Part shown: positions 27,862-42,188 of the stretch, in pieces | Layout of the letters: every line of letters begins with the position of its first letter | Numbering within the stretch: the first letter of the stretch is position 1 | Assembly (NCBI RefSeq): GCF_026210795.1 | Contig: NC_089445.1 | Span: forward strand, 3,658,001-3,722,000 | Origin: Rhizophagus irregularis | Lineage: Eukaryota > Glomeromycota > Glomeromycetes > Glomerales > Glomeraceae | Reading direction: 5' to 3' | DNA: 64,000 bases | Position numbers and translations under genes: made by a program | Notes under the pieces: model-generated | Databases searched by the model: none | What the model was told of the DNA's origin: nothing | Seen by the model: only the letters and a program-made list of their open reading frames with translations

Positions 27862-28321
27862 GTCGTCGGTCTGGATGTGGGTCTCGCTACCGCTCACCCA
27901 CCTCGGACTCACGTCCTCGCAGTACCTACTTGGGCCTTAATGGCCCTGGAATCCCCATATATCCACCACAATCTGGGACAACATCTGGAACAAATATATA
28001 TACCAAATAACTAGAAAAAAATAGAAAAGGAAGCAATAACGGATATAGTGAGAGGGTTGTCCCGGATGTGGCAGATGTGGCAGATGTTTCAGAAAAATTA
28101 TGAGAGGACATCCCCCCAGAAAAAGTTTTATTTTTACCCCCCAGATCCGCCACATCCGGAACATCTGGAACAAGTCAGGATTCCGTCTAATAATCTGTTG
28201 GAGGCAGTGAGATAGCAAACCAGGTAAGTTAGCAGGTAAGCCCCTAGAAGGTCTATAGAGCCAGTAAGACCAACCCCGTCCTGCCCCCGTCAGAAAAAAT
28301 AAGTAATTGAACAATGGGTAT
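27862..28321. repeat. Left terminal inverted repeat, element B (460 bp)
   Basis: It is the inverted copy of 41724-42183. I noticed one mismatch, in CCAGTAAG near 28261 against CTTACTAG on the right. The outer end is GTCGTCGGTCTGG. It contains several GATGTGG/CACATC repeats and a TTGAA-type motif near its inner edge. No gene is called in it. Confidence 0.93.
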
Positions 28322-28360
28322 TGAGAATAGAGCATAACAAGATAAGTTTAGAAGGTAGTA

Positions 28361-28681
28361 CTAATCCGTCTTCCTCTTTTTTGCCTCCTTAAGGCATTTA
28401 TCAATACACTGTTTACACGCATCATCAGAATCTAAGATTTTCTGTCCAAGTTTTTTGCATTGCCGATTGTAAGCAGTCTGCTGTCTCTTAGCAGCGGTTT
28501 CTTTCTTTTTCTCCTTAGTCTTCTTCTTGATCATCCAGTCTATTCCAGTAAAAGTATTCTTATGCATACCACAAATTGTGCAGTCACCATGCAGCCGGTA
28601 ACGCCCATTTGTAGTCATATCTTGTATTTCACTAGCCGTTTCAGTTTCCTTCTTGCACTTTAGGCAGTAAAAACGTGTCAT
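28361..28681 (-). CDS. Small zinc-ribbon protein, viral type (106 aa)
   Basis: The start is ATG at 28681. Residues 5-45 hold two CxxC knuckles (YCLKCKK and CTICGMHK) with TTNGRYRLHG between them. This pattern resembles the short zinc-ribbon proteins (DUF5679-like) of polinton-like viruses and large DNA viruses; I compare from memory. The rest is Lys/Glu-rich and basic, with a further CxxC...C group near the end. It is the outermost gene on the left and divergent from the integrase, with 44 bp between the two starts. A DNA-binding or virion role is possible but unproven. Confidence 0.7.
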   Translation of the reverse strand: MTRFYCLKCKKETETASEIQDMTTNGRYRLHGDCTICGMHKNTFTGIDWMIKKKTKEKKKETAAKRQQTAYNRQCKKLGQKILDSDDACKQCIDKCLKEAKKRKTD

Positions 28682-28725
28682 TTTAAGATTTGAAGTCTAA
28701 AACCATTCCTTTAATTTGTTGTAAT

Positions 28726-29817
28726 ATGTCACACTTAGAGAATTACTATAAGTACTACAATCTCTCCGGAGTACCAGCACGAATTCTAAAAGGTGAAGAG
28801 CACTACAACCTATACAAAAAGCCCCTAAAGGAAAAGTCAACAGAACGCCCAAAGGTAATTGTATGGAAACCAAATGCAACACATCAGGCAGATCTTGCAG
28901 AAATGCCAGTTGACCCCAAAGGATTCCACTATTTTCTCGTAGTGGTGGAAGTTGCAGGAAAGAGAGTTGATGCAGAACCCCTAAAGGATAAGACTGCAAA
29001 TAGAGTTCTAAACGGGTTTGTCAAAATCTACAGAAGAAATCGTATTAAGCCACCAACACACAGACTGGAGACAGACTCCGGATCAGAATTCACTAACGAC
29101 CAGGTACGTGATTTTTTCCTGAACAGCCTAGGGGTAATGATGAGGTTCGGAGAGCCAGGAAGGCATAAACAGCAATCTTATGCTGAAAGAGCTATCCAAG
29201 CCATCCAAGAACCCCTTCTTAAACGAATGGTAGCACAGGAGTTGAAAACCGGGGTGACATCCGTGGAATGGTCAGAAGATTTCCATAATATAGTGAGTAA
29301 AGTAAATGAACTCTGGCAGAGAAATCCCCCAGACATTCCGACAGGATCACCCAAAGTGTCAAAAAAGACGGATCTCCTCTCTGAAGGAGCACGTGTCAGA
29401 GTCAAGTTAGATGAACCTATCTCAGTACTCGGTAATAAACTTCACGGAAAATTCCGTACAGGAGACATAAGATGGAACCCAAACATTCGTGTAATCAAAA
29501 AAATGATACTCTCACCCGAACAGCCTCCTACATATCTCCTTAATGGACCACATGGTCGATTAGGTGTATCCAGATGTGCATATACCCGAAAGGAATTGCA
29601 AGTAGTTCCTATTAATGAAAAGCCTCCACCTGACTCTGTGATAAGAGGACAACCTGAAAGATTTATTCCTGAGCAGATACTTCGGCATCGCATTAGAAAA
29701 GGTCAAGACCAGTATTTGGTTAAGTGGGAGCGCTATCCAGACACTGAGGCTACTTGGGAACCTGCTGACCGGTTGAAGGAGGATGTCCCTGACTTAATTC
29801 GCAAATTTTGGGAATAA
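28726..29817 (+). CDS. DDE integrase with C-terminal chromodomain (363 aa)
   Basis: It is a retroviral-type (rve) integrase, expected to cut and join the TIR ends into target DNA. The catalytic triad candidates are D56 (HQADLAEMP), D117 (ETDSGSEF) and E154 (SYAERA), with 36 residues between the last two. An SH3-like C-terminal segment (about 215-300) is followed by a chromodomain at about 312-363 (YLVKWERYP...ATWEP), which may direct insertion to particular chromatin. I see no HHCC zinc finger at the N-terminus. The start ATG 28726 is the first in-frame ATG; upstream codons have none. It is read opposite to Gag-Pro and its stop is 27 bp from the protease stop. Polinton and chromovirus integrases share this plan. 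Confidence 0.9.
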   Translation: MSHLENYYKYYNLSGVPARILKGEEHYNLYKKPLKEKSTERPKVIVWKPNATHQADLAEMPVDPKGFHYFLVVVEVAGKRVDAEPLKDKTANRVLNGFVKIYRRNRIKPPTHRLETDSGSEFTNDQVRDFFLNSLGVMMRFGEPGRHKQQSYAERAIQAIQEPLLKRMVAQELKTGVTSVEWSEDFHNIVSKVNELWQRNPPDIPTGSPKVSKKTDLLSEGARVRVKLDEPISVLGNKLHGKFRTGDIRWNPNIRVIKKMILSPEQPPTYLLNGPHGRLGVSRCAYTRKELQVVPINEKPPPDSVIRGQPERFIPEQILRHRIRKGQDQYLVKWERYPDTEATWEPADRLKEDVPDLIRKFWE

Positions 29818-29843
29818 AAAAAAAATAGAAGAATTAAAGGGTC

Positions 29844-30617
29844 TTATTTTTTATCCCCTCGATTAGCATCAGGAACTATCGGGATAAAAACATTCTTCCC
29901 ATCACAGGTAAAGGCTATATGTTCACGTGATTCATGGACATCATAATTGTAACGTTTCAGACACGTTCGGCTTAACCCAATTTCCCTATGCTTGTAACCA
30001 CTTAAGACTGCAAGGTCCTCAGTGATAGCATAATCAGGGGTAAGTTTGATTGTCACTCCCTTTACCATGCCGAATGTCCTACCTGTTCCTGAAGCACCAG
30101 ATATGTTATATGTAATACTCTTGTCAATATCCAACCCTAATTCCTCAGCAGCTTCTCTCTGAATAAAAGACGCATTAGCACAAGTGTCTGCTAAACACTG
30201 AATTGCTATTCCATTAACCTCCCCATCCAGTGCTAAAAGATCTTTAGTATTCTCTAAACGAGCTATGTCAATATCCATAGGATCATCTACCCTGATATCC
30301 TCTTCTTGTTCCTCCTCAACTAGGTCCTCCGGAATCTCTGTGACTTTTCTAGCAGACAATAACTCCTCCTGAAGAATCTCACGGAGTAATTTCCTAAAGT
30401 CTGCAGACCTTAACAGGCTTAATAAATCATTCTTAGTAACAGCTTTTGCAGGTGTAAACTTACTACCAGTAACTTTCACAGGAATCTTAACAGGGGTTGC
30501 TTTGCCTTTCAATGGCACACTAGAAGAGCTAACTGCTGTCTTATTTGGGGACGACTTAAGAAGTTTTGAGATACTCGAACCTACTTTTTTTTTGACCCAA
30601 CACGAACCATATAGACA
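29844..30617 (-). CDS. Retroviral-type aspartic protease, -1 frame to gag (Pro)
   Basis: It is a pepsin-like retropepsin expected to mature Gag. The frame is open from 30617 down to the stop at 29844-29846 and overlaps the end of gag (30581) in the -1 frame. There is no ATG before the domain; the first possible non-AUG start is GTG at 30518, so ribosomal frameshifting is the likely mode of expression. The catalytic motif is ADTCANASFI (D-T-C in place of the usual D-T-G). A flap-like SGASGTGRTFG follows, and the second conserved hydrophobic-G element is IGLSRTCLKRYNYDV. The part before the domain is Lys/Ser-rich and then acidic (EEEQEED). A DTCA variant might lower activity, but some retropepsins deviate here. 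Confidence 0.82.
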   Translation of the reverse strand, partial: CLYGSCWVKKKVGSSISKLLKSSPNKTAVSSSSVPLKGKATPVKIPVKVTGSKFTPAKAVTKNDLLSLLRSADFRKLLREILQEELLSARKVTEIPEDLVEEEQEEDIRVDDPMDIDIARLENTKDLLALDGEVNGIAIQCLADTCANASFIQREAAEELGLDIDKSITYNISGASGTGRTFGMVKGVTIKLTPDYAITEDLAVLSGYKHREIGLSRTCLKRYNYDVHESREHIAFTCDGKNVFIPIVPDANRGDKK

Positions 30618-32011
30618 TCACCATCTTTTTCTCTCAATTCTACCTTTTCACCAAAACTCGCAGTATCAATGTCCATAGCATCATCATTAAGATCGAGGTT
30701 TCTCATTGCTCGGGCCAAATCCAGATCATCACGTCTATCTTTAGCCTTCTGAAGTTGTTTTGTAAGTATTTTAGACGTCCCACGTTTATATCCCATAATA
30801 AGATCAATAGCATTTTGATGATCATCCAAAGTCCACTCAGGAGCATCAGGGTCATCACCAACATCATGATCTACATAACCATCATCCCAATCAGGATCCT
30901 GAGGATCCTGAACAACACGTCTCTGTGGTTTTGGTCGAACAGGTTTAATCTGCTGTCTATAGACTGGTGGATTACGAACTGGCCGAGCCTGTAATTGTTT
31001 AAATTGCACCTGAAAATTCTTGGTAAGTTCGTCAGCTTGAGCCTTAAGTAACTCTTGTAATTGTTCTTGAGTAACCCCAGATGACTTTGATGTCAGTACG
31101 ACAGGTTCCTGTTTTCCTAATGGAGGTTGAGTTACATCACTGTAATCTGCTTGAAGTCGTCGATTTCTATCTTGTAACCCCAAGCGCATTTCAGCCCTTC
31201 TCCGTTCTAAATTTCTCAGATGTTTAACCAAGTCATCAGGATTAAGATTACTAAACCTTTCTGCTTCAAAAATATTATCAGCCGAAAGACCTCTAAAGAA
31301 CTGGTCGATAATAAGATCATCAGTTAGTTTTAGTAATTTTCCAGCTCTCTTTACAGTTCTATAAAATGCATCGACTGGCTCATTTTCCTGATAAAGACTG
31401 TTAAAACGGATACGTTTCTTTTCATCTAAAATAGTTGGGAATTGTGTTCTAAGCCAATAAAGCGCCTGGTTAGGTTTAATACCTGGAAAAACTATAGGAT
31501 GATTATTAGCAGCAGCAACACCAGCATCTGCAGTAGCTGGAGCAACTCTATCTGTCGGACGAGCACCAGCTCTTCCCCAAGCTTTATCTCCACCTATTAA
31601 ATCATGGGTAGGAATAAATGTTGCTCTAATAGTTGCTAATGCATTATTTATATCTCTTGAATAGATTTGTGCTTCAGACCCATTTACATAGGTACCTGCA
31701 TTTGGTCCTCCTGCACCTTCTGGTATTACTAATGCTACAAAAGCAGCTAAATTAGCTCCACCAGCTGAATTAATACTAGAAAGTTCCCAATTTTTTCCTG
31801 TAATTTCTCGATCAAACCATTCAGCCGCTTCACCAGCCATGCAGCTTCTAAGTATACCCATAGCTCTTTTCCAAGACTCTGGTGGCCCTCCAGCAGCGTA
31901 TGGGTTAAGATTGATAGTATCAAGATAACCCATATAAAGCCTAACAAATGTATCAATATCATCAGTAGCTTTACCCTCAAAAATTGGCAATCCTATCGCA
32001 GTGGTAGCCAT
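30581..32011 (-). CDS. Gag-like capsid protein (476 aa)
   Basis: It is a retrotransposon-type Gag, expected to form the particle. The N-terminal capsid part has FEG, PESWKRAMGIL, then AAEWFDREITGKNWEL (about 60-76). The C-terminal capsid part has ALYWLRTQFP, RIRFNSLYQ-x-EPVDAFY and IIDQFFRGLS (about 175-245), matching the order in Ty3-type Gag (W-F then Q-x-x-x-E-x-V and F-x-x-G-L). It then has a basic, RRRAEMR-type region and a long Gln/Pro-rich tail. No CCHC zinc knuckle is visible. The start ATG 32011 overlaps the end of the coiled-coil gene by 19 nt, suggesting coupled translation. It ends in the slippery A run. Confidence 0.82.
   Translation of the reverse strand: MATTAIGLPIFEGKATDDIDTFVRLYMGYLDTINLNPYAAGGPPESWKRAMGILRSCMAGEAAEWFDREITGKNWELSSINSAGGANLAAFVALVIPEGAGGPNAGTYVNGSEAQIYSRDINNALATIRATFIPTHDLIGGDKAWGRAGARPTDRVAPATADAGVAAANNHPIVFPGIKPNQALYWLRTQFPTILDEKKRIRFNSLYQENEPVDAFYRTVKRAGKLLKLTDDLIIDQFFRGLSADNIFEAERFSNLNPDDLVKHLRNLERRRAEMRLGLQDRNRRLQADYSDVTQPPLGKQEPVVLTSKSSGVTQEQLQELLKAQADELTKNFQVQFKQLQARPVRNPPVYRQQIKPVRPKPQRRVVQDPQDPDWDDGYVDHDVGDDPDAPEWTLDDHQNAIDLIMGYKRGTSKILTKQLQKAKDRRDDLDLARAMRNLDLNDDAMDIDTASFGEKVELREKDGDVYMVRVGSKKK
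30587..30593 (-). other. Putative -1 ribosomal frameshift site, gag/pro
   Basis: On the minus strand, gag ends TCA AAA AAA AAG TAG. The heptamer A AAA AAA in the gag frame lets both tRNAs slip back one base. After slippage the protease frame reads on from AAA GTA GGT with no stop through the whole domain. The run is nine A long and ends immediately before the gag TAG. I did not find an obvious stem-loop downstream by eye. Confidence 0.72.
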
Positions 32012-32790
32012 ATCGTCTCTAGTGGATTGTTTAATATAGGTGGAGGAGGGTTCAATTGTCTAATTCGAAACCATTGTACCTGAATTCTAAGAGCAGCTAT
32101 CTGTTGGAAAAGTCTATTCCTAAGTCTCCCTAATGTCTGAATCCCAAAACGCACCCTATTATTAGCATGTGCTAGCTGTACATTAACCTGTCCAAGTTGT
32201 GCATTAGCCAATACAAGTTGTCCTCCAGTCCGAGTAGCCCTCAGCCGCCAATGATTTAAAAGGATATTACCACGATTCACAGCATTTTGAGCCTCATTAC
32301 GATCCCTTACTGCTTGAGTATAATCTGCTTGTAATACATTACGTTCATGTCGTGCCTGATTACGTTCACCTATAGCCCGTCGACGAAGCTCTACCATAGT
32401 ATCATAATCTCTTTGCAGGTTATGGTTTTCTTCTATAAAATTATCATTGGCAGCACGTATAATAACTAATTGACGTTCTAAATTAGTAAACGTTTCATCA
32501 AATGCATTTATCTTACCTTGTGCAAAAACTAACAAATCTTTTGTAATACCAAGTTCTTCATGTTTTGCTTTACAGCGATACATTAATATATTAATAATAT
32601 GTTTGATTTGATTATTTGCCTCCTGTATCTCTGAATCAACAGTTAAACGACCCCTGGTAGTCAATAAATTTGCATGAGCCTTTAGTATTCTAACTAATTC
32701 ATCATCGTCTTCTTCATTAGCCAAGTGTGCAGGAGGCGGTCCAGTAGGTTCTGAAGGAGTATAAACTGGAATTGGTGTTGATGTCGACAT
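31993..32790 (-). CDS. Coiled-coil protein of unknown function (265 aa)
   Basis: I do not recognise a family. Residues 1-35 are Pro/Thr-rich, then acidic. From about 40 to 240 the protein is almost continuously helical, rich in N, Q, R and A with heptad-like spacing and RHERNVLQADYTQAV-type repeats, so a long coiled coil is likely. The C-terminus is Pro-rich. It lies directly upstream of gag in the same orientation and overlaps its start by 19 nt, so it probably shares the gag transcript and may be a particle or scaffold component. The start ATG is 32790; the opposite-strand ATPase starts 31 bp away. Confidence 0.7.
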   Translation of the reverse strand: MSTSTPIPVYTPSEPTGPPPAHLANEEDDDELVRILKAHANLLTTRGRLTVDSEIQEANNQIKHIINILMYRCKAKHEELGITKDLLVFAQGKINAFDETFTNLERQLVIIRAANDNFIEENHNLQRDYDTMVELRRRAIGERNQARHERNVLQADYTQAVRDRNEAQNAVNRGNILLNHWRLRATRTGGQLVLANAQLGQVNVQLAHANNRVRFGIQTLGRLRNRLFQQIAALRIQVQWFRIRQLNPPPPILNNPLETIWLPLR

Positions 32791-32821
32791 AGTATTTAAA
32801 CTAAGTTAGAATAAAATTCAA
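32791..32821. promoter_or_regulatory. 31-bp bidirectional intergenic region
   Basis: It is the only sequence between the divergent starts of the coiled-coil protein/gag unit (32790, minus) and the ATPase (32822, plus). It is AT-rich, with TATTTAAA, and on the minus strand it has TTTGAATTTT, matching the TTGAA motif found before other genes of the element. The promoter role is inferred from position. Confidence 0.5.
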
Positions 32822-34045
32822 ATGGATCTTTATGTATACAATTTGGATGAGTACACGACCGACTCAAGACAAGGCAATGAGTTTGCTCCATCATGGCCCT
32901 TTCGATTAGCCGTAGCAGGTAGCTCAGACTCAGGTAAGACAACTATGATTATTAACTTGTTAATGGGTGACAAGAAGGCAAAGGAGGATGGTAATCGGTA
33001 TGTACTATGTGATGCAGTACTTTTAGTTGGCAGATATCTTAACGAGCCAAAGTGGGCAGTTGTACATGATTTTTTCGAAGAGGAGAAGATCCCATTCACT
33101 GCAGTAACCCATAGTGAGATTCCAGAGATTGACTCCTTCGACCCTACTCAAGCTACTGTGGTAATCTTCGAGGATCTGATGGATGCACCTAAAAAAATCC
33201 AGGATCTTATCACTGGTTACTTTACACATGGACGACACAAAAATATTTCATGTATTTATGTAGCTCAAAGATTCTTTGCCATTCCTAAGGCTATTCGAGA
33301 AAATGTTAACTACATCTCACTGCATGGAGGTCATGGGAGCCTTACAGATACTAAGAGAATCATTCGCCTATATACAGAAGAATCAGAGTCATTAGCACCA
33401 GTAATTGATGATCTTACTTTGCAACGTGAATTTGTAGTGTTTGATCTTAGACGGTCTAAAAGTGATCCACTGTCCATTCGAGTAAGATGGGATACTAGTC
33501 TCAGTTCGATCACAGAGCAATCTCAGTTCAATCCTAGTTCAATCTCAGTTCAATCTCAGTTTGATCCAAGTTTGAACCCAGTTCGATCTCAGTCTGAACC
33601 CAGTTCAATCACAGTTCGATCCAAGTTTAGTCCCTATGGTCAGAAAGCTGTATCTGAAGCAAAAAAAGGTGGACACTTGATTGAATTTGCTCGGGTATTT
33701 CCATCCCCTAAAGAGCGTCAACATTTACTTGTACCTGGTGTCTTAGCCAAGAATACAGATACCTGGATTAAATTTGTCTTTCGGGAAGCTTATGGACTCT
33801 CTGGTAAGACCCTAGGAGCTGACTTTCAGGACTTCTTAGCAAAAGTACAGGGTAGGACTGCAAAGACTGAAACTCTGAAAACTGAGAATGTGAAGGAGTT
33901 ATTCTCCCGATATGAAGCCCTGAAGTCTAGTCGCCCTCTGGATAATAAAAAAATAATAGAAGGTATTGAAGTCCTTCTACAGATCTTTTCTAAGAGCCAC
34001 ATGGACCGTCGAGCATTACAAGTAGGGATTAATAGTATCTTGTGA
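32822..34045 (+). CDS. A32/FtsK-like packaging ATPase (407 aa)
   Basis: It is expected to pump DNA into a particle, as the genome-packaging ATPases of Polintons and large DNA viruses do. Walker A is GSSDSGKT (33-40), Walker B VVIFED (113-118), and a conserved Gln follows in IYVAQRFF (about 149). The ATPase core ends near 200. Residues about 226-262 are a Ser/Gln/Phe-rich insertion made of short repeats. The C-terminal 140 residues are helical with KKGGHLIEFARVFPSPKE; I do not recognise this part. The start ATG 32822 follows a 31 bp spacer. The stop overlaps the end of the 186-aa gene on the other strand by 17 bp. Confidence 0.85.
   Translation: MDLYVYNLDEYTTDSRQGNEFAPSWPFRLAVAGSSDSGKTTMIINLLMGDKKAKEDGNRYVLCDAVLLVGRYLNEPKWAVVHDFFEEEKIPFTAVTHSEIPEIDSFDPTQATVVIFEDLMDAPKKIQDLITGYFTHGRHKNISCIYVAQRFFAIPKAIRENVNYISLHGGHGSLTDTKRIIRLYTEESESLAPVIDDLTLQREFVVFDLRRSKSDPLSIRVRWDTSLSSITEQSQFNPSSISVQSQFDPSLNPVRSQSEPSSITVRSKFSPYGQKAVSEAKKGGHLIEFARVFPSPKERQHLLVPGVLAKNTDTWIKFVFREAYGLSGKTLGADFQDFLAKVQGRTAKTETLKTENVKELFSRYEALKSSRPLDNKKIIEGIEVLLQIFSKSHMDRRALQVGINSIL
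33501..33630 (+). repeat. Short tandem repeats within the ATPase gene
   Basis: About ten imperfect copies of a roughly 12-base unit around CAGTTCAATC encode alternating S, Q, F and P residues. They sit between the ATPase core and the C-terminal part, so they form a flexible linker that can vary in length without breaking the frame. Confidence 0.65.
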
Positions 34046-34589
34046 GAATATCAAGTAATTCGTCTGCAGAAGCTCTAAGAATCATAGCACTTTTTTTACG
34101 GCCTTCAAAGTCAATCCTTAACATCTTAGCCTTCAACCCTATTGCTCCTAAAGCACGAGAAGCAAAGTTCTTAGTCATTGGATTACTTATATGATTTACA
34201 TAGTTCTCATAGAATGTAGTGAAAGGCTCGTCAATACCATCTGGATATGTATCTCTTAGAAATTGATATAAAGCAATTTCTCCACTGTCACAACCTATGG
34301 CTATAAGCTGTTCGAGAAGCCACTTCCTAATATCTTCATATGGCTCTCCATCCATAATTTTCATATCCAGTCTTTGTGTAAACAATTGTGTAAAGTCCAC
34401 ATTACTTCCCTGACGAATGATCTGAACTAACTTATTCCTAGCAAGTCCCAAGGCTTGTAGAGGGTCATTCTCATTACTAATCTTCTTTATAATCTGTCTG
34501 TATAACACGCTGGATAATCCTCTATGTGCTGTTTTTGGAGTGATTACTCCACAGTTTTGGCATTGGTTTATTACGATTGATGTTGACAT
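34029..34589 (-). CDS. Unknown 186-aa protein
   Basis: I do not recognise it. The start is ATG at 34589. Near the N-terminus it has CQNCG, half of a zinc knuckle. Residues about 130-185 (NPMTKNFASRALGAIGLKAK...) have the look of a small helix-turn-helix or winged-helix unit; this is only an impression. It has no signal peptide or membrane segment. It is read towards the ATPase and overlaps its 3' end by 17 bp. On the other side the 193-aa gene lies 45 bp away in the same direction. Confidence 0.65.
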   Translation of the reverse strand: MSTSIVINQCQNCGVITPKTAHRGLSSVLYRQIIKKISNENDPLQALGLARNKLVQIIRQGSNVDFTQLFTQRLDMKIMDGEPYEDIRKWLLEQLIAIGCDSGEIALYQFLRDTYPDGIDEPFTTFYENYVNHISNPMTKNFASRALGAIGLKAKMLRIDFEGRKKSAMILRASADELLDILTRYY

Positions 34590-34634
34590 GGCTATCTTTC
34601 TTTATGTAAAAAAGAATTATTCAAAATTAAGTAA

Positions 34635-35216
34635 CTATTCGGAGCAGTCCTTGCACAACTTGTCCGTTAAGTCACTTGGGCTTACAGGCATGAGACATTC
34701 CCTACACAACTCAATATTAAGCTCTGCAAGTCTCGGGGTATGGTCCTCCAAAGTTCGTGGATGACCGGAAGGACCAGAGGAAGGTGTTCCGTTAGTCGTA
34801 TCTTGCTGTAAGATAAAATCATCATATTCATCTTGGTCAGCCTGAATAGCGGCCCTGATTTGTTGTATATCATTGAAAGTTAACCGCTGCCCATCAAGAT
34901 TTTCCTCATTATAGCGTGTTTCATTGATGATTTCCTCTATAAGCGCCTCTTCTTCATAATGGACAAGGTAGTAATCCTCAACTACCTCATAGTCACTCTC
35001 AATCAGTCTATAATATGTTCTAGTACCACGTCGAACATAACGTCCTGTATCTGTATTTAAATATACAGGTTGCTCTTCAGGTGGAGGTGCAGTTTGTCTA
35101 CGGACAAGCCTTCCATCAATATAATCATGGGATTCCATAACTATTCGATTAAAGGTATCTCCACCGATAATAATTGGACGTCCAGTTATAGGGTTAGCTA
35201 TATAAGGGTAAGACAT
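34635..35216 (-). CDS. 2-cysteine-adaptor-like and zinc-knuckle protein (193 aa)
   Basis: The start is ATG at 35216. Residues 6-26 (ANPITGRPIIIGGDTFNRIV) resemble the core of the 2-cysteine adaptor domain of nucleocytoplasmic large DNA viruses, which reads NPxTGRxIxxGGxTY; the flanking cysteines are not clear here. The middle is acidic and rich in Y and E. The C-terminus has CREC...CKDC, a likely zinc knuckle. In viruses such domains occur in virion or regulatory proteins, so a structural or adaptor role is possible. Four tandem hairpins follow on its upstream side. Confidence 0.62.
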   Translation of the reverse strand: MSYPYIANPITGRPIIIGGDTFNRIVMESHDYIDGRLVRRQTAPPPEEQPVYLNTDTGRYVRRGTRTYYRLIESDYEVVEDYYLVHYEEEALIEEIINETRYNEENLDGQRLTFNDIQQIRAAIQADQDEYDDFILQQDTTNGTPSSGPSGHPRTLEDHTPRLAELNIELCRECLMPVSPSDLTDKLCKDCSE

Positions 35217-35254
35217 GTCTTTTTTCTGTATGTGTCTACATACCTAATAGTTTT

Positions 35255-35261
35255 CTTCAAT
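35255..35261 (-). promoter_or_regulatory. ATTGAAG motif upstream of the 193-aa gene
   Basis: On the minus strand it reads ATTGAAGAAAACTATTAGG and lies about 45 nt before the ATG at 35216. It is one of several similar motifs before genes of element B. Confidence 0.4.
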
Positions 35262-35277
35262 TTACAATAACCAAGTG

Positions 35278-35487
35278 ACATGGTCATCAGTCCTTGTCGA
35301 AAAAAAATGCAAGGATACCTGATGATAAAGTTACATGGTCATCAATCCTTGTCAAAAAAATGCAAGGATACCTGATGATAACGTTACATGGTCATCAATC
35401 CTTGTCGAAAAAATTCAAGGATACCTGATGATAAGGTTACATGGTCATCAGTCCTTGTCAAGAAATATGAGGATACCCGATAAATAA
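35278..35487. repeat. Four tandem 53-55 bp hairpin repeats
   Basis: Units start at 35278, 35333, 35386 and 35439. Each contains GTCATCAGTCCTTG or GTCATCAATCCTTG, a short A-rich loop, and CAAGGATACCTGATGA, so each can fold into a hairpin (6 bp TCCTTG/CAAGGA plus about 7 bp TCATCAG/CTGATGA around a bulge). The fourth unit is degenerate on its right side. The array fills the space between the 193-aa gene promoter and the stop of the 95-aa gene. It could be a terminator, a replication or packaging signal, or a small RNA source. Confidence 0.75.
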
Positions 35488-35488
35488 G

Positions 35489-35776
35489 CTACTCCTGTTG
35501 AGTCCATTCATTCCACTTCCAGTCCAGTCTCCAAGGATCGCCTCCCCATCTTTGTTCACTTAATGCATGCTCTATGGTTTCCCTCTCTTGGGGGTCCACG
35601 ACCATCCCATTCCTAAGCATTTTCTCCATAATATAAAGCTGATCCTCGGTGAGGCGGTCTATCCATCTTTTATAGAAGTCGTTTACATCTTCAAATGATA
35701 TCCAGTCAATATTCCCTTTTTCAAACGGCTTTCCAAGAGCTTGGACATGCCCAATTGTAGTAGCGTAATTTTTCAT
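35489..35776 (-). CDS. Unknown 95-aa protein, translationally overlapped with an F-box gene
   Basis: The start ATG at 35776 overlaps the TGA of the 43-aa F-box gene (ATGA). I recognise no family. It is rich in Trp (six) and Glu, with a helical middle (DFYKRWIDRLTEDQLYIMEKMLRNGM) and a Trp-rich end. It could be the partner or the former C-terminal part of the F-box protein just upstream: a frameshift at the ATGA overlap would fuse the two. Hairpin repeats begin right after its stop. Confidence 0.6.
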   Translation of the reverse strand: MKNYATTIGHVQALGKPFEKGNIDWISFEDVNDFYKRWIDRLTEDQLYIMEKMLRNGMVVDPQERETIEHALSEQRWGGDPWRLDWKWNEWTQQE

Positions 35777-35904
35777 CTCTTATATGCTTCTTGACGAACT
35801 TCCTGCCACCACACACTATCTACTTTACTCGCTGCAATAAGGTCAGTATCTGGGATCTTTGCAACAATGCGTTCGACTATTTCTACTGGTAATCGGTCCA
35901 ACAT
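35773..35904 (-). CDS. Mini F-box protein (43 aa)
   Basis: ATG 35904 to TGA 35773. The whole product is little more than an F-box: LDRLPVEIVERIVAKIPD, then a conserved L, S and WW spaced as in F-box helices 2-3. F-box proteins bind Skp1 and bring targets to SCF ubiquitin ligases. It is short because it stops at an ATGA overlap with the next gene, so it may work alone as a Skp1 decoy or be expressed as a fusion with the 95-aa product. An ATTGAAGAT motif lies 35 nt upstream. Confidence 0.6.
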   Translation of the reverse strand: MLDRLPVEIVERIVAKIPDTDLIAASKVDSVWWQEVRQEAYKR

Positions 35905-35932
35905 GATGTTATGTTACTTATACTATAGCCAT

Positions 35933-35939
35933 CTTCAAT
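35933..35939 (-). promoter_or_regulatory. ATTGAAGAT motif upstream of mini F-box gene
   Basis: On the minus strand ATTGAAGAT is followed 3 nt later by CTATAGTATAA and lies 35 nt before the ATG at 35904. Confidence 0.45.
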
Positions 35940-36013
35940 TACTGTATGCCTATTACACATGGATAAAAAATATAGACTAAATTCGTACAGGATCGTAGGA
36001 CCACAGGAGCCGC

Positions 36014-36484
36014 TTATGCAAGAAGTTCTGTTAAGGTTTTCTCAGCCTCGTTTTTAGTAATAGCTCGCTTTGGGGGACCGGTTGATGAGTCCTTAGTCGC
36101 ATTATAATACAATTCGAAGAGGGCCTCAAGTTTGTCTAAAAGAGCTTGTTTATTCTTGTATGATTCACGAATCTTTGCTATCTTAGCAGTATATGCTGCA
36201 TTATCTGGGAAGAGTTTTCTGGCCACGAACTTCACATATGATACAGGAGAATTTGCCGTCTGGATTCGCTTGATATACTTCACATGATCCTGGACAAGGT
36301 AGCTGGTTTTGCTAAACCCAGATACTAATGCGACTACTATAGTGTCTTTCAATGCACGGATAATCTTGAGGACAGTTTCATCAGAGACAATGGTGAACTG
36401 ATTGTGTGATGCATCATAAATAACTTTATCACTAATGCTGTCAGTGCTGTTAATAATGCTTGCTAATTCGGTATATGTTGACAT
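36014..36484 (-). CDS. Unknown 156-aa helical protein
   Basis: The start is ATG at 36484. I recognise no domain. The N-terminal half mixes strands and helices (VIYDASHNQFTIVSDETVLKIIRALKD); residues about 95-130 are a charged helix (AKIAKIRESYKNKQALLDKLEALFELYY), and the tail is short and basic then acidic. It has no signal peptide or cysteines. It lies between the F-box pair and DNA polymerase, with a TTTGAAGAT motif 47 nt upstream. A replication accessory role is possible from position only. Confidence 0.62.
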   Translation of the reverse strand: MSTYTELASIINSTDSISDKVIYDASHNQFTIVSDETVLKIIRALKDTIVVALVSGFSKTSYLVQDHVKYIKRIQTANSPVSYVKFVARKLFPDNAAYTAKIAKIRESYKNKQALLDKLEALFELYYNATKDSSTGPPKRAITKNEAEKTLTELLA

Positions 36485-36524
36485 GATTCCTTATACTTTT
36501 TTGTACTTTGTAATAAATAGGAAT

Positions 36525-36531
36525 CTTCAAA
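36525..36531 (-). promoter_or_regulatory. TTTGAAGAT motif upstream of the 156-aa gene
   Basis: On the minus strand TTTGAAGATTCCTATTTATT lies 47 nt before the ATG at 36484. Confidence 0.4.
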
Positions 36532-36597
36532 TTGACTTTACATTCAAGCAAGAAAAAATATATATACCTACTGTAAATCCAACCGCATTCTTGGCAA

Positions 36598-38478
36598 TCA
36601 TGTCCAGATAACCTTGTTTGCATTTTTCACATGGCAGTATCCTGCGGTTTCAAACTTGAGAGCTTTCAATGCTTTGGATGCATTTTCTGGACAAGTGATA
36701 AGTGTAGGACTACTCGGCTGTTCCTCTAGAATAAATCCATCTGTATGGATGCGTCGTACTTTATCCTTATATGGTTCTAATAACTCTGAAGTCGTCTTTC
36801 GTCCATGTGCTAATAAGAATGGAGCGATCCTAGGATATTCCCCCTTGAAGGGACTACCTGGGTTTGTGAACTGGAATCGCCACTGGTCAGATCCTACTGG
36901 TACGATGGAGTCAAGTGTGTGGCCTTCTGGAAACTTGAATGGATCTGTTTGATCTGTGGTGAGTGTCTTGTAATTGCGTTTCCTCTGGCAGAGTGCTCCC
37001 CATAGTGTATTGAGAACTCTCTTTGCAACACGACCGGCCACGCCACCCTGGTTCTTTATATTGAAGAGAAAGTGGACATACTCACCAAATATTACAGTCC
37101 CAGGAATTCTTGCTTCTCTGTCATATATCAAGGCATTTGGCTTTCCATCCTGAATTAACTGTATATCGAGTCCAAGTTTCTTTGCTCGTTGTAAGTCAAT
37201 GAATGTATAGACTCCCCTCTTATTCTGTCGGAAGAGAATGTCATTACCACTTACCTTGCCCTTGGGCGCTCCCTGGGAGCTAGCACGAAATAATCCATAC
37301 AAGGCATAACCTCTATGGTCTACAAAGTCTTTGAGTATTTGAAACTTACCTTGTCGGATTGGAAAGTTTGCATTTGATTGCTGAATACTTGGATACAAAC
37401 TTGTCACGTCGTATTGCCTTCCATAGCCCTTCCATTCATTGTCTGCCCAGATAAGACCTCCCATCATTGCATCACTTATCCACTCTGCTTCGACTGGGTC
37501 AAGAGGATCATTGGCTGGAACCCCTACACTAAACCGTTCAAAAAGCCAGAGTGCAGTTCTCTTGTACGACCAGTTGTGGTAAGATAAGTCGATTCCTAGA
37601 CCGAACTTCTTTGTAGCCTGTAGGAAGGAATCCCGCTCTTCATGGATCCTCTGGTATGTTTCCTCAAGTGTTTCATATATTCCAGTTTTACAATTCTTCT
37701 CGATAGGGATGAAGGAGTAACTATCAGAGTTCTTACCTTTCTGAAACTGTCCAACTGTAAGAGACTTAACTGTCTTACCATTGTATATTGTTACTACATT
37801 ATTAACCCCATCTTCACGATAAACAAAGGGAGACTTTTGTTTTCTATCTAATTTGCTAGGGTGGAGTCTTCCGGGATTCAGTGCAAGAGAGTAGTGGCCT
37901 TCAGACAGGATAAGTGTTGCACGTCTGTCAGATTTGCTCTTGGAAATTCGAGTGGAATCCCCTACAATATTAAGTGCAAGGCTTCCTGCAAGTTGTTCAA
38001 CCTTATCCATATATGAGACTGGAACTGGAGCATCACGATTGAGACCTAATGCCTTTTTGATATACTCGGGCTTTTTGATTGACTTTGGCATTTTAGAGAA
38101 TGTGCCGTAGATATATTTCAGGCATTCATACAGGCAATCATTTAGCTCCCCGTTGCAACCCCCTGCAACCGGTGGGGCATCTCTCACATAAATTATGAAT
38201 CGTTCAAAATAATCAGGGTCTGCATCATCCGGTAGTTGTGCTTCGTCGTAGTGGTCCAAGAGTGAGAAGAGGCTGGCTGGTTGGTTTCCTGATGTCCATC
38301 CACCGGGTTTCCAGTTTTCATAGGGAAGCAGAATCTGAAATTTATGTGTCGGATACCGGGATTGGAGTTGCTGTCCAAGTCTGGCAATAGCTCCTCTAGA
38401 AAATCTTGCGCCTGAATACTGTAGTTCTTTGATATCTGGTCTTGTAGGCAAAGCACGTGCAATTTTTGAATAGGCCAT
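36598..38478 (-). CDS. polB: Family B DNA polymerase (626 aa)
   Basis: It is expected to replicate the element. Motif A is YDVTSLYPS (D357), motif B KRVLNTLWGA (486-495) and motif C RIHTDGF, with His578 in place of the first Asp of DTD and the catalytic Asp580 kept. The short spacing and lack of long insertions fit the protein-primed branch used by Polintons. I do not see clear 3'-5' exonuclease motifs. Residues about 105-200 contain NDCLYECL (C115) and SEGHYSLAL (H195), spaced like the Cys-His pair of OTU-type cysteine proteases. The ATG 38478 is preceded by an ATTGAA motif at 27 nt. The helicase lies upstream, 83 bp away. Confidence 0.9.
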   Translation of the reverse strand: MAYSKIARALPTRPDIKELQYSGARFSRGAIARLGQQLQSRYPTHKFQILLPYENWKPGGWTSGNQPASLFSLLDHYDEAQLPDDADPDYFERFIIYVRDAPPVAGGCNGELNDCLYECLKYIYGTFSKMPKSIKKPEYIKKALGLNRDAPVPVSYMDKVEQLAGSLALNIVGDSTRISKSKSDRRATLILSEGHYSLALNPGRLHPSKLDRKQKSPFVYREDGVNNVVTIYNGKTVKSLTVGQFQKGKNSDSYSFIPIEKNCKTGIYETLEETYQRIHEERDSFLQATKKFGLGIDLSYHNWSYKRTALWLFERFSVGVPANDPLDPVEAEWISDAMMGGLIWADNEWKGYGRQYDVTSLYPSIQQSNANFPIRQGKFQILKDFVDHRGYALYGLFRASSQGAPKGKVSGNDILFRQNKRGVYTFIDLQRAKKLGLDIQLIQDGKPNALIYDREARIPGTVIFGEYVHFLFNIKNQGGVAGRVAKRVLNTLWGALCQRKRNYKTLTTDQTDPFKFPEGHTLDSIVPVGSDQWRFQFTNPGSPFKGEYPRIAPFLLAHGRKTTSELLEPYKDKVRRIHTDGFILEEQPSSPTLITCPENASKALKALKFETAGYCHVKNANKVIWT

Positions 38479-38561
38479 TTGATATAACTATGAATTGTAT
38501 TCAATTGTAATATAGGTTTTTTATATAAAAAATATAAGATAACTAAGAGGCGCTTATCTTA

Positions 38562-41114
38562 TTAAAAGGAGTCAATCATATCACAGGCCTCATCAATATC
38601 CAGCTCGTCTACAAATCCATTAGCGGCTTCCCATTCACGTTCCATATCAGTTTTTGGACGTTCCTCTGGGATTTCTCGTGCCTTACCCTTATTCATCTTC
38701 ATAGTTTCATAACCGGAGGTGGTAGGGATAATCTCGGCATCATGATCCTCCTTATATGCTCTTATTAGATCTGCGAGTTCTTTACGGCTAGGTGTTTTAG
38801 GTAAGTACCCATTATATTCTATCCAGTCCTTGAAGCGGTCTACTACCTCCCTAAGGTAGTACTGGTACTCGTCCTCAATACGTGTTGTGGGACATTCCTC
38901 TACTTCAAACGCGAGTATTTCCCAGTCATAGTTGTCTGACACGTCTTGGTACTTAGCCCATAAATCCTTACCTGTATTGTGGAGATCATTGAAGACCTGG
39001 TCCTTTGAATTCTTGACCCATGGCTTACGATCCCATCGGTGCCTTTCATGCCAAGCCCAGTGTGCTTGAGTACCTTCCTTTGGTTCAGGGTCCCAGTCAA
39101 CTTCTAGTTCTGTGTCGGGTTCTGGGATAGGTTGCTCTTCAGGAGCCGGTTCTGGGTCAGGCTTAGTGACAGATGCAGAAAATTCTGCGGGAGACTCGGG
39201 TTGTTGCTCAGGAACTGGGTTCACAGTTGTAAAATCTGAGTCAGATAGCAAGTCATCTAAAATGTCGTAGTCATCATCAGCTTTAAATGCAGGTTCCTCA
39301 GCAGGCGGCTCATTTTCTTGATCAGGTTCCTCATCAGATAAATAACAGTCCGAGAAGCTATCTATAGGTTCATCAGTATCTGATTCTATAGGAGCTGGAG
39401 ATTCCTCAGGAATAGGATCCTCATTGATGACAGGTGCGGGTTTTACCTTCAAGCAATCGGGCTTAAGTGGTACTGGTGGTGGAGTCTTTTTGGAAACTGG
39501 TTTCTCTTCAGTAGGCTTCTTCTCAACAGGAGCGGGTTTTTCCTCAGCAGGTTTCTCAACAACTGGCTCCACTTCCTCTTGATCTACTTGCGATTTACTA
39601 GCTGGATTATATATATTTGCTAAGAACTTCACCAAGGCATTTGGATCAGATGTAGGCTTCTCAGGAGTTTCTACATCTATTCCTTCTATATTGATTTCAT
39701 CTGTTTCGTGGATCCATTTTTTGGTGAGAAACTTCTTGTAAAGGTCCTCCCTGGATATGCTGTAAACTCGTGGTGTTGCCTTACCTACACGTATTTTTCT
39801 GCTATTTATACCCAACTCATTTGATAGGATTCTAGAAGCGTTTATCTTTGATAGGGGTGTAATGCAATGAGTTTCACAGTATGAAGTATATACCCTATAA
39901 AATTCTTGAACAGGTAGGTCGGTTATATGATTTTTTACTATGAGGTAAGTGTCCTTTATGAATTGAAATAGGGGTGGGAGAGTCGATATGATGTGATCCT
40001 GCTTAGATGTTGTCATAGGTGGTGGATTCCCATTGAAGTCTGGGTAAGCATCTGCAATGGCTCTCAAATAAGCATAGAATGCCTCACTGGCGCCTGGGTA
40101 TTTCATAGCGTCACCGAGTTTTTTGAAGTAGTTGAGGTCTCCCTTGCGGGATGGTGACACATCCAAGAACACTGTGCGCCTATCATCATTATCCACTCTG
40201 AGAGCATTTTCGTTGGTTAGGACGATAGTAGACATAAAGTTTTTATAATGTGTTGGTGTCTTGTATTTTTCATGGATTTCCATTATGTCACTCGTTACCT
40301 TATCCTTTAAAGAGCGATACAGATTATTCCACTGGCTTTTTTCCGTGGGCATTTCCTCGAGAAGAAGAAGAATCTTACCCTGTAATTGCCCATTGAAACT
40401 TCCACGAATCGTCTGAGGATCGCTGGTCTTATAAACGAGTTGAGTGCCTAGGACGCTGCGCTGAATGAAATCTGTTATAATGCCTTTGCCCCAACCCTGT
40501 CCAGATTTCAGGTAAAGGATCGAATACATTTTCCTTCCAGCTGCCACACCGGCCAACCACTTTATGATATACTCAGTAAGATTCCAATCGCCTGAACACC
40601 AGATATCCTGAATGTGAGAGAAGATAAATTTAACTGCGAGGTGGGTTGTAGATTCAAAAGTGGATATCGGACGCAGGATATGGAGGAATCCTGGAAAGAT
40701 ATTGAGATAAAGTTGGCCACCTAGTTTAAAGATACGGGATTTTTGAGGGTCACAGGTAGCTACACATACAGTACTATATTCGATCATAAACCATTTGTTG
40801 ATATTAAATTCAACCTTTTGTGAAGGACCCTGTTCAGATTGTGTGTAAAAGACTTTGGTAATTGGACGGATAAGTTTATTAATATTTTTATCAGGGATGT
40901 GCTCGAGGTTTTTGATTTCTGATCGCCACATGAAGACTCCATGCGGGTTGGAGCAGGGGATAAAGTAACTGCAAAGATAACCTTTAGCTTGATTGAGATC
41001 CCTCATATTCTTTGCAGCGTTAATGAGCCATTTAAGCTCATCAATACTAAAAGCCTTCTTTTGTTCACCGAACTTGGGGATAACTTGAGCTTGAGTGCTA
41101 GTTTGGGCAGTCAT
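38562..41114 (-). CDS. SF3 (D5-like) helicase with acidic tail (850 aa)
   Basis: It is expected to unwind DNA at the element's origin. Walker A is SGQGWGKG (about 203-210), ending in Gly where Ser/Thr is usual. Walker B is ILLLLEE (about 248-254), and the SF3 motif C region is STIVLTNEN followed by DDRR (about 294-313). A winged-helix-like segment lies around 385-445. From about 475 to 660 the chain is Pro/Glu-rich and low in complexity, then a helical C-terminal domain of about 150 residues follows that I do not recognise. No archaeo-eukaryotic primase motif was evident in the N-terminal 190 residues. The start ATG 41114 is the first in-frame ATG. Intact here, broken in element A. Confidence 0.87.
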   Translation of the reverse strand: MTAQTSTQAQVIPKFGEQKKAFSIDELKWLINAAKNMRDLNQAKGYLCSYFIPCSNPHGVFMWRSEIKNLEHIPDKNINKLIRPITKVFYTQSEQGPSQKVEFNINKWFMIEYSTVCVATCDPQKSRIFKLGGQLYLNIFPGFLHILRPISTFESTTHLAVKFIFSHIQDIWCSGDWNLTEYIIKWLAGVAAGRKMYSILYLKSGQGWGKGIITDFIQRSVLGTQLVYKTSDPQTIRGSFNGQLQGKILLLLEEMPTEKSQWNNLYRSLKDKVTSDIMEIHEKYKTPTHYKNFMSTIVLTNENALRVDNDDRRTVFLDVSPSRKGDLNYFKKLGDAMKYPGASEAFYAYLRAIADAYPDFNGNPPPMTTSKQDHIISTLPPLFQFIKDTYLIVKNHITDLPVQEFYRVYTSYCETHCITPLSKINASRILSNELGINSRKIRVGKATPRVYSISREDLYKKFLTKKWIHETDEINIEGIDVETPEKPTSDPNALVKFLANIYNPASKSQVDQEEVEPVVEKPAEEKPAPVEKKPTEEKPVSKKTPPPVPLKPDCLKVKPAPVINEDPIPEESPAPIESDTDEPIDSFSDCYLSDEEPDQENEPPAEEPAFKADDDYDILDDLLSDSDFTTVNPVPEQQPESPAEFSASVTKPDPEPAPEEQPIPEPDTELEVDWDPEPKEGTQAHWAWHERHRWDRKPWVKNSKDQVFNDLHNTGKDLWAKYQDVSDNYDWEILAFEVEECPTTRIEDEYQYYLREVVDRFKDWIEYNGYLPKTPSRKELADLIRAYKEDHDAEIIPTTSGYETMKMNKGKAREIPEERPKTDMEREWEAANGFVDELDIDEACDMIDSF

Positions 41115-41157
41115 TTTTTGTTCTATCAAATCGAGTACTAATTTATAGTTACCTAAT

Positions 41158-41164
41158 CTTCAAT
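41158..41164 (-). promoter_or_regulatory. ATTGAAGAT motif upstream of helicase gene
   Basis: On the minus strand ATTGAAGATTAGGTAACTAT lies 50 nt before the ATG at 41114. The remaining spacer to 41334 contains CCTG-rich short repeats and an A9 run, without a gene. Confidence 0.45.
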
Positions 41165-41334
41165 TGCCGAATATTTTTTCCAAAGATCTGCACTCCTAAC
41201 AGGTTACCCTCCTGTAGTCCTGTGGTCCTGCAATTCTGCAATCCTCCGGTTATATCTGGTTATTTTCTAGGGGTAAAAAAAAAACTATAAACCACGAACC
41301 TTTACGACTGCTCTAAATCTTCCCTTCCCCTTTT

Positions 41335-41694
41335 TCAAACTACATATATCTGAAATCCAAACCGCTCAAGAGCTCCTTTTACTATAGTTAACTCTTTTCT
41401 AGTGTCCGTTAACTCTTTACAAGCCTTTTGATATGCTTCCCATTCAAGTTCACGGAGGATACCCTCCTCTTCCAATGATTGGCCAAGAGCATCATTTGCT
41501 TTTTCCTTCTTTTCTACTGCCCTGTCGTATACCTCCTCGGCTTTTTTATGCCGCTTCCAGAGTACTCGTTCAGCTTCGGCTCTCCAAATTGGGCTGACTT
41601 CTAGAAGATGTGGCCCGAAATTGCTACTTGGAATGCGTTCCAGGATATGGCCTACAAGTTCGGGGATTACTGATACTGCGTGCGGGGTATACAT
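41335..41694 (-). CDS. 119-aa F-box-like coiled-coil protein
   Basis: It is identical to the copy in element A. IPELVGHILERIP followed by L, S, P-x-W and a helix up to about residue 45 resembles an F-box; the rest (KKAEEVYDRAVEKKEKAND...) is a charged coiled coil. The start ATG 41694 lies 30 bp inside the right TIR, so its promoter (TTGAA motif 45 nt upstream) lies within or at the TIR edge. It may serve to recruit a host ubiquitin ligase. Alternative: a generic helical protein with a chance F-box resemblance. Confidence 0.65.
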   Translation of the reverse strand: MYTPHAVSVIPELVGHILERIPSSNFGPHLLEVSPIWRAEAERVLWKRHKKAEEVYDRAVEKKEKANDALGQSLEEEGILRELEWEAYQKACKELTDTRKELTIVKGALERFGFQIYVV

Positions 41695-41723
41695 GTTATC
41701 TGTCCTTATAGATTACTTATGGT

Positions 41724-42183
41724 ATACCCATTGTTCAATTACTTATTTTTTCTGACGGGGGCAGGACGGGGTTGGTCTTACTAGCTCTATAGACCTTCTA
41801 GGGGCTTACCTGCTAACTTACCTGGTTTGCTATCTCACTGCCTCCAACAGATTATTAGACGGAATCCTGACTTGTTCCAGATGTTCCGGATGTGGCGGAT
41901 CTGGGGGGTAAAAATAAAACTTTTTCTGGGGGGATGTCCTCTCATAATTTTTCTGAAACATCTGCCACATCTGCCACATCCGGGACAACCCTCTCACTAT
42001 ATCCGTTATTGCTTCCTTTTCTATTTTTTTCTAGTTATTTGGTATATATATTTGTTCCAGATGTTGTCCCAGATTGTGGTGGATATATGGGGATTCCAGG
42101 GCCATTAAGGCCCAAGTAGGTACTGCGAGGACGTGAGTCCGAGGTGGGTGAGCGGTAGCGAGACCCACATCCAGACCGACGAC
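41724..42183. repeat. Right terminal inverted repeat, element B (460 bp)
   Basis: It is the inverted copy of 27862-28321, ending GACCGACGAC at 42183. ACACT of the LINE target follows. Confidence 0.93.
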
Positions 42184-42188
42184 ACACT
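42184..42188. repeat. Target-site duplication of element B, right (ACACT)
   Basis: It repeats 27857-27861. Joining the flanks through one copy restores GCTCACACTTTATGTCATG, as in other LINE copies. Confidence 0.85.

Follow-up and report, generated by a model that had tools for sequence, protein, structure and literature searches.

Introduction

Polintons, also called Mavericks, are DNA transposons bounded by terminal inverted repeats (TIRs) that carry an rve integrase, a family B DNA polymerase and an A32-like ATPase, together with an adenovirus-type cysteine protease and a double-jelly-roll capsid protein, the mark that they share with adenoviruses and giant viruses. The capsid is a chief trait by which virus realms are separated. 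Here we analyse a 14.3 kb element in the genome of Rhizophagus irregularis, an arbuscular mycorrhizal soil fungus associated with roots. The element spans positions 27862-42183 of a stretch of 64,000 nucleotides (the window; contig NC_089445.1, positions 3,658,001 to 3,722,000); it has the TIRs, integrase, polymerase and ATPase of a Polinton, and encodes a predicted Gag and an aspartic protease instead of the double-jelly-roll capsid and the cysteine protease. It is probably a recently inserted, self-synthesizing DNA transposon of the Polinton type in which the DNA-virus capsid module has been replaced by a Gag-protease (Gag-Pro) module. New in this variant of Polinton-type elements is that Gag-Pro occurs together with a DNA polymerase and that no reverse transcriptase (RT) accompanies it.

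In Polintons of Glomus intraradices / R. irregularis no major capsid protein (MCP) was detectable, and its loss in favour of life as a transposon, with loss of the virion, has been proposed (PMC7805220). These Polintons come from the same host and have no detectable capsid gene; in the accessible part of that paper Gag and protease go unmentioned, its elements may belong to the lineages described here, and the present element offers a possible answer to the gap named there. Nine MCP-less Polintons that also lack the cysteine protease and the ATPase are reported in the portion available of Krupovic et al. 2014 (PMC4028283). Maverick elements are likewise known from R. irregularis (PMC8647823, PMC11075540) and, according to the former, have recently expanded; in the available sections of both papers "gag" appears only as a gag-pol annotation filter. 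As far as their text was accessible, PMC4409740, PMC6431247, PMC12220804, PMC8547959 and PMC10328495 contain no Gag in Polintons. We found no title or abstract that describes Gag-Pro combined with a DNA polymerase, in a search whose scope did not extend to preprints and most subscription journals. The first-pass annotation of the window knew of no description of this combination either, and the literature searched, in its accessible parts, holds no report of Gag in R. irregularis Polintons.

The element and its copies

The genome searched comprises 146.7 Mb on 32 contigs (C numbers below; the window lies on C17). We considered 13 open reading frames (ORFs) in the window element, all of which were compared with Pfam and ten with PHROGs (Table 1). 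Together with structure prediction, these comparisons bear out the first-pass annotation, which had read here one element with TIRs, a target-site duplication, a family B polymerase, an SF3 helicase, an A32-like ATPase, an rve integrase, a Gag and a retropepsin, and had seen no jelly-roll capsid gene, Ulp1-like protease, RT or long terminal repeat (LTR) inside it. None of the latter was found by us: the 13 ORFs have no Pfam match to an RT, an RNase H or an adenovirus-type (Ulp1-like) cysteine protease, no capsid was matched in Pfam (13 ORFs) or PHROGs (ten ORFs), and between 26500 and 43500 there are no long direct repeats of the LTR kind, the sole direct repeat family being internal and short (58 nt). 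The largest unassigned ORF, CC265, has 265 amino acids (aa) and appears by eye to be a coiled coil; because a double-jelly-roll capsid protein would need more than this, no gene for one is present among the unassigned ORFs. A single jelly roll may still be among the small proteins of the element, which were compared at the level of sequence.

The TIR arms of the window element, 460 bp each, differ by a single mismatch, and the element sits in a repeated host sequence: the flanks joined without the insert match at least 40 places at 84-91% identity, and 17 of the 40 listed places match across all 164 bases. A nearly identical neighbour (C17:3648198-3662520), flanked by its own duplication CCATT, ends on its right side at window position 4520, 23 kb from the window copy. 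Named database matches of the window Gag and polymerase all come from Rhizophagus, nearly all of them from R. irregularis. Among the matches listed, the genome holds at least 91 to Gag and at least 107 to the ATPase, in two subfamilies, A and B, of what we call class 1, the window lineage. We fetched 11 full copies, ten from subfamily A and a single one from B. Their TIR arms are 97-100% identical, and perfect 5-bp duplications, each different, flank 12 of 12 elements including that in the window. The two closest copies are 99.6-100% identical to the window element along their length, which points to recent movement.

Full-length copies lacking gag and pro would have spoken against a capsid swap; in all 11 fetched full copies both genes are found, at the same place, which supports gag-pro as a constant component. 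Each of the ten A copies contains all 13 genes (several decayed); the B copy has 12 of the 13, p119 being missing at its place. When the window element was compared with four A copies and with B over the best aligned stretch of each pair, dN/dS was 0.36-0.62 for Gag and 0.14-0.21 for the protease (one pair without change), with 0.06-0.20 for the polymerase and 0.06-0.28 for the integrase (one pair without change). Gag and pro are thus under purifying selection (dN/dS <1).

It could be argued that gag-pro is by chance the remnant of a retrotransposon nested in one element. Nothing speaks for this explanation, to which we give practically no credence and which we reject: the genes stand at the same place in all 11 fetched full copies, from two subfamilies, there is no LTR, and an RT lies within 5 kb of 0 of 91 element gag matches, compared with 102 of 150 canonical gag matches. 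This control used the canonical Retrotrans_gag matches, of which there are at least 150, and 150 listed RT matches of 1007 candidates, and like all counts in this paragraph it refers to the matches listed and is to be read as a comparison, not as an absolute count. Within 10 kb, one of 91 element gag matches has an RT. For the ATPase the picture is reversed, with 80 of 91 element gags having one within 5 kb versus 0 of 150 canonical gags (3 of 150 within 10 kb). At a distance of up to 10 kb an ATPase is missing beside six of 91 gag matches, and a gag beside 19 of 107 ATPase matches; three of these 19 were fetched, and all three hold a decayed B-type gag.

The predicted Gag and the gag-pro junction

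The predicted structure of the window Gag matches the C-terminal domains of retroviral capsid (CA) proteins, with PEG10, MLV, HIV and Arc among the matches, and the Gag-derived host capsids Arc, PEG10, PNMA2 and MOAP1 score with the best in structure comparisons of the modelled CA C-terminal domain. These four are single host genes, alike in this domain; here, in difference to them, it is part of a mobile element with a polymerase and an integrase. In the model, the CA fold is firm for the C-terminal domain and partial for the N-terminal domain.

The gag and pro genes overlap by 37 nt, with pro in the -1 frame and a run of nine adenines (A9) just before the gag stop codon; the open frame of the protease extends upstream to 30617, giving 257 aa. 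Ten of 11 A elements, counting that of the window, retain the A9 run, the remaining one being three A short, and so do four of four B-type copies. In both A and B the -1 frame encodes the peptide SISKLLKS upstream of the first pro start codon, and its conservation ahead of that codon fits translation through the slip. We regard expression of gag-pro by -1 frameshifting as putative: the overlap and the slip run are present, and no stable stem is predicted downstream.

Three further lineages

The first-pass annotation treated the element as single, which does not hold, as there are at least four lineages in this genome. Beside class 1, three further lineages with other polymerases (classes 2-4, Table 1) carry a coiled-coil-Gag-type protein and a protease next to an rve integrase, with a CCHC motif in two of them. 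Class 2 has an 803-aa coiled-coil-Gag-type protein and a protease and an integrase that match below the Pfam cut-off (Asp_protease 1.4e-4; rve 0.019), the integrase being 36% identical to that of class 3. Its A32 ATPase is 40% identical to the window ATPase (E 3e-57), its polymerase is of another type, family B by motifs only, and the fetched flanks showed no ends, so that TIRs were seen in classes 1, 3 and 4 only. Classes 3 and 4 were traced from two long-polymerase groups. Both have a long polymerase and an integrase, the latter of the rve type in class 3. In class 3, where the 6-bp duplication was read in one copy, these accompany a coiled-coil-Gag with a CCHC motif and a protease, joined on C29 into an intact polyprotein of 1073 aa (coiled coil-Gag-CCHC-protease), and in class 4 a 695-aa coiled-coil protein with CCHC and a protease (Asp_protease_2 2.9e-7). 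In the window element, CC265 takes the position that corresponds to the N-terminal part of the fused coiled-coil-Gag elsewhere (fused in stretches L037 and L042).

Over the whole CA part, the window Gag is 27-30% identical to the class 3 polyprotein (~273 aa, E 2e-23 to 4e-27), and over the expected CA part class 2 is 41% identical to class 4 (222 aa, E 2e-36). To class 3 these two connect only by way of the coiled coil (class 4, E 2e-41) and of a stretch behind CA (E 5e-12). These alignments give classes 1 and 3 a recognizable CA, and we infer one for classes 2 and 4. The junctions of classes 2 and 4 resemble that of the window, with A9 and A10, respectively, and pro in the -1 frame.

The polymerases are of separate types: compared with regard to the protein-primed type of Polintons, the window polymerase gives no alignment (E >5) with the long ones of classes 3-5 or of the IMG/VR contigs L040 and L041 (see below), which align with one another. 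For the class 3-5 polymerases DNA_pol_B_2 was over the cut-off in the genome search and was not listed by hmmscan of the proteins. Genome-wide, a typed protease match lies within 10 kb of 43 of 63 PolB matches and within 20 kb of 55 of 63, compared with 699 of 20000 random points on five contigs within 10 kb; the count used 186 typed protease matches (among matches listed, 155 + 151), smaller fragment rows being left out. Of the eight PolB matches without a typed protease within 20 kb, one (C8:2715967) was examined and has a retropepsin-like ORF of 152 aa near the polymerase gene (31% identity to the class 4 protease over 67 aa, E 0.007).

The active site of the protease varies between the lineages: it reads D-T-C or D-S-C in the two ATPase-bearing lineages (window 29844-30518; L031 3442-4257) and D-T-G in the two CCHC lineages (L033 4108-4716; L037 501-1157).

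One polymerase type with two proposed capsid modules

With a profile of the class 3-5 polymerases (A6) we recovered two Polinton-like virus contigs from IMG/VR, L040 and L041, whose polymerases are 36-39% identical to that of class 3 (38.9% and 36.3% over ~1,100 aa); this compares with 37.7% between L040 and L041 and 35.3% between class 3 and class 4. Both contigs have candidate genes for a jelly-roll capsid, of 477 and 439 aa, and the Gag and protease of the four classes have no match in them by tblastn (best E 0.36). L040 also has an A32 ATPase, and an rve integrase lying tail to tail with the polymerase, as in class 3. The capsid candidates in turn have no match in the R. irregularis genome in a search made without a positive control, and IMG/VR scans with the ATPase, the class 4 Gag, the class 4 polymerase and the integrases gave no relative. 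Since the polymerases of class 3 and of the two contigs are alike and their capsid modules unrelated, one polymerase type would come with two capsid modules. An exchange of the capsid fits because, in this genome, elements whose polymerase type is that of relatives with a capsid have Gag-Pro in its place. Its direction, jelly roll lost and Gag gained, would follow from existing knowledge of Polintons rather than from a phylogeny.

The swap of a capsid module for Gag-Pro proposed in the first-pass annotation is thus strengthened by the fixed gag-pro, by dN/dS below 1 and by the shared polymerase type with capsid candidates, and its further element, the packaging of DNA, is conjectural. The assignment to the Polinton lineage stands for the gene set and the TIRs; for the window lineage it does so less well for the 5-bp duplication (12/12), the short PolB and the separate SF3-type helicase, in which it departs from canonical Polintons. 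Class 3 is closer to them with its long polymerase, 6-bp duplication and AG...CT ends, and differs, as does class 4, in that no A32 ATPase was found.

The features shared with Ty3-type retrotransposons and retroviruses raise the question whether the element began on that side. The CA fold of Gag, the retropepsin (by sequence) and the gag-pro overlap with a candidate -1 slip site are common to both, as are the CCHC motifs of classes 3 and 4 and the 5-bp duplication of the window lineage, which is also the length that Ty3 makes. RT, RNase H and LTRs, on the other side, were not found here, and TIRs and a DNA polymerase were. In such an origin Gag, protease and integrase would be original, with a DNA polymerase put in place of RT and TIRs in place of LTRs; all three genes do have Ty3 counterparts, and the window integrase carries a chromodomain, which is known from chromoviruses and also from some Polintons. 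We nevertheless think this improbable: by its polymerase, ATPase and TIRs the element sides with Polintons, and the class 3 integrase, tail to tail with the polymerase as in L040, aligns with that of L040 (20% over 327 aa, E 2e-11). An RNA stage is more doubtful still: the particle might carry RNA of the element, or serve a hybrid cycle with RT supplied in trans by resident retrotransposons. CCHC motifs, which bind nucleic acid in retroviruses, are present in classes 3 and 4, and RT matches are plentiful across the genome (1007 candidates, 150 of them listed), but the element keeps its own DNA polymerase under purifying selection and has neither LTR nor RT.

How a Gag particle might be filled

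We suggest that the DNA of the element would be copied by its own family B polymerase, aided in the window lineage by the helicase, while Gag would assemble into particles. A minority of Gag-Pro fusions, made by -1 slippage on A9, would bring in the protease, which would then mature the particle. The DNA might be loaded with the A32 ATPase in the window lineage, or through the CCHC motif where no ATPase was detected, and the integrase would finally insert it with a 5-bp stagger. DNA inside a shell of the Gag type has a precedent, as the Gag-type capsids of foamy viruses and caulimoviruses hold DNA, made there by reverse transcription. Across the four lineages, searched by sequence, the distribution suggests two possible ways of loading a genome: classes 1 and 2 have an ATPase and no CCHC, whereas classes 3 and 4 have a CCHC and no ATPase that could be detected. 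The first-pass idea that the ATPase fills the Gag particle may accordingly hold in the window lineage, where a packaging-type ATPase lies near gag, and less so in the two CCHC lineages, where none was found; the motor is therefore not a constant partner of Gag.

Taken more widely, a group of dsDNA virus-like elements of a Glomeromycotina fungus would build protease-matured Gag/CA particles, by way of gag-pro slippage, around DNA copied from DNA without reverse transcription, with one coiled-coil-Gag-Pro module across three polymerase types that do not align and with the genome loaded by an A32 motor in classes 1 and 2 and by a CCHC knuckle in classes 3 and 4; we would put the chances of this general picture at about even.

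Several points weigh against a Gag capsid in these elements. The Pfam match of the window Gag lies below the cut-off (0.023), the best Foldseek E is 0.013, and the CA N-terminal domain was recovered in some rows only (MLV, dArc1, Copia). The Gag-type proteins of classes 2 and 4 have no Pfam Gag match in their putative CA and are tied to class 3 solely by the coiled coil and the stretch that follows CA; the CCHC matches fall short of the Pfam cut-off (0.013-0.028), and the protease motif of classes 1 and 2 is D-T-C or D-S-C, not D-T-G. After the slip site there is no stable RNA stem, the predicted energies being weaker than the shuffle mean in three of four cases and about equal in one. In class 3 the junction keeps the A run without the -1 arrangement: on C29, A9 lies within the single 1073-aa frame, and in the decayed C7 copy a run of A10 is followed by pro in another frame. 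By tblastn the class 3 and 4 stretches contain no ATPase, bar a repeat-region match in L037. The IMG/VR capsids are candidates only (in L040 Capsid_N at 0.028, below the cut-off; L041 without any Pfam match). Finally, that Gag forms particles and encloses the DNA of the element is a deduction from the genes.

This last point, along with the failure to find an ATPase next to the Gag of classes 3 and 4, leaves some room for Gag-Pro being kept for a task other than enclosing DNA, in a purely intracellular element: interference with Ty3-type retrotransposons, escort of the integrase-DNA complex into the nucleus, or targeting of integration. The canonical retrotransposon Gags, at least 150 among the matches listed, could be targets of interference. 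Between subfamilies A and B, moreover, Gag (51%) and the coiled-coil protein (40%) have the lowest identity of the assigned genes, compared with 92% for the integrase, 86% for the protease, 87% for the ATPase, 89% for the polymerase and 81% for the helicase, and such divergence resembles that of genes in conflict. Capsid genes, however, also diverge fast; Gag, protease and a frameshift-type junction have all been retained, which fits the building and maturation of a particle; and in the window lineage a packaging-type ATPase lies close to gag. We thus consider another task for Gag-Pro unlikely, though less so than the Ty3 origin, and favour a capsid module that has been replaced.

If this is true, the replacement of the double jelly roll by Gag-Pro in elements that go from DNA to DNA would join two virus worlds, and it suggests that containers can be exchanged between DNA viruses and retroviruses. 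The claim is testable, since Gag either assembles and protects the DNA of the element or does not.

In L043, a mosaic stretch, the gag is B-type, the ATPase stands closer to A (93% versus 86-87%) and the integrase end is A-like. The gag and coiled-coil genes seem to be exchanged or fast-evolving, judging from this mosaic and from the divergence of A and B.

Other genes and features

Table 1. Coordinates of the window element (positions in the window) and of the further lineages (positions on contigs)
Feature	Position	Strand	Support or remark
Target-site duplication ACACT, left copy	27857..27861
Left TIR, 460 bp, tip GTCGTCGG	27862..28321		at least 40 genome matches (among matches listed)
p106, DUF5679 protein	28361..28681	-	Pfam 3.6e-17
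rve integrase with C-terminal chromodomain	28690..29817	+	Pfam rve 5.5e-9, Chromo 4.3e-17; TTG-start ORF, provisional start
Retropepsin-like aspartic protease, active site D-T-C-A	29844..30518	-	Pfam Asp_protease_2 9.3e-9
Candidate slip site CAAAAAAAAAG, directly before gag stop codon	30584..30594	-	pro in -1 frame
Gag, predicted CA C-terminal domain ~residues 194-288	30581..32011	-	Retrotrans_gag 0.023, below cut-off
CC265, coiled-coil protein (by eye), 265 aa	31993..32790	-
A32-like packaging-type ATPase	32822..34045	+	Pfam Pox_A32 3.1e-9; PHROG terminase large subunit 2.2e-8
p186, CxxC N-terminus, conserved C-terminus	34029..34589	-	weak Gag_p24_C 0.0035, below cut-off
p193, 2-cysteine adaptor-like motif	34635..35216	-	Pfam 2C_adapt 0.0017, below cut-off
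p95, no assignment	35489..35776	-
p156, relatives in two other lineages	36014..36484	-	no Pfam match
Family B DNA polymerase, 626 aa	36598..38478	-	Pfam DNA_pol_B_2 1.7e-7
SF3-type helicase (DUF5906 / phage-primase helicase region)	38562..41129	-	Pfam 1.4e-17; PHROG 5.1e-23
p119, no assignment	41335..41694	-	in 10/10 fetched A copies, not found at its place in B copy
Right TIR	41724..42183
Target-site duplication ACACT, right copy	42184..42188
Class 2	C8:3481000-3505500		found through next protease matches
Class 3	C7:3326939-3338987		439-bp TIRs 99.5% identical; 6-bp duplication ATGGTA; AGT...ACT ends
Class 4	C16 ~50.6-62.4 kb		TIRs ~800 bp, 97.6% identical

The window polymerase has the motifs DVTSLYPS (A), KRVLNTLWG (B) and HTDG (C); a pattern search gave no exonuclease motif, and a PDB profile search with this polymerase as query gave no match. 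The 2-cysteine adaptor motif that p193 resembles occurs in large DNA viruses. We considered p186 for the role of a second capsid protein and rejected it: its Gag_p24_C match is below the cut-off, and by eye its C-terminus recalls a small winged-helix region.

Small proteins of the p156 type occur in three lineages, next to the polymerase (window, L001 331-756) or the integrase (L037 4583-4957); those of the window and L001 are 34% identical over 99 aa (E 1e-17). We regard p156 as a candidate terminal protein or replication partner. The p119 protein is 74% identical to one near an end of a class 3 element (L032 7010-7369), despite the non-aligning polymerases, and this match together with its absence at its place in the B copy may reflect gene exchange between lineages.

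In class 2, a 350-aa protein (L031 5062-6114) by eye joins an extended coiled coil to a single membrane span near its C-terminus; it is possibly envelope or spike-like, with a Pfam transmembrane-domain match below the cut-off. A class 3 protein of 263 aa (L033 5541-6332) has no Pfam match above the cut-off and by eye consists of two similar halves that recall the TATA-binding protein. Within the window element, the non-coding stretch 35247-35465 holds a repeat in four copies at a spacing of 53-55 bp, one of them 66% alike, and may be a control region.

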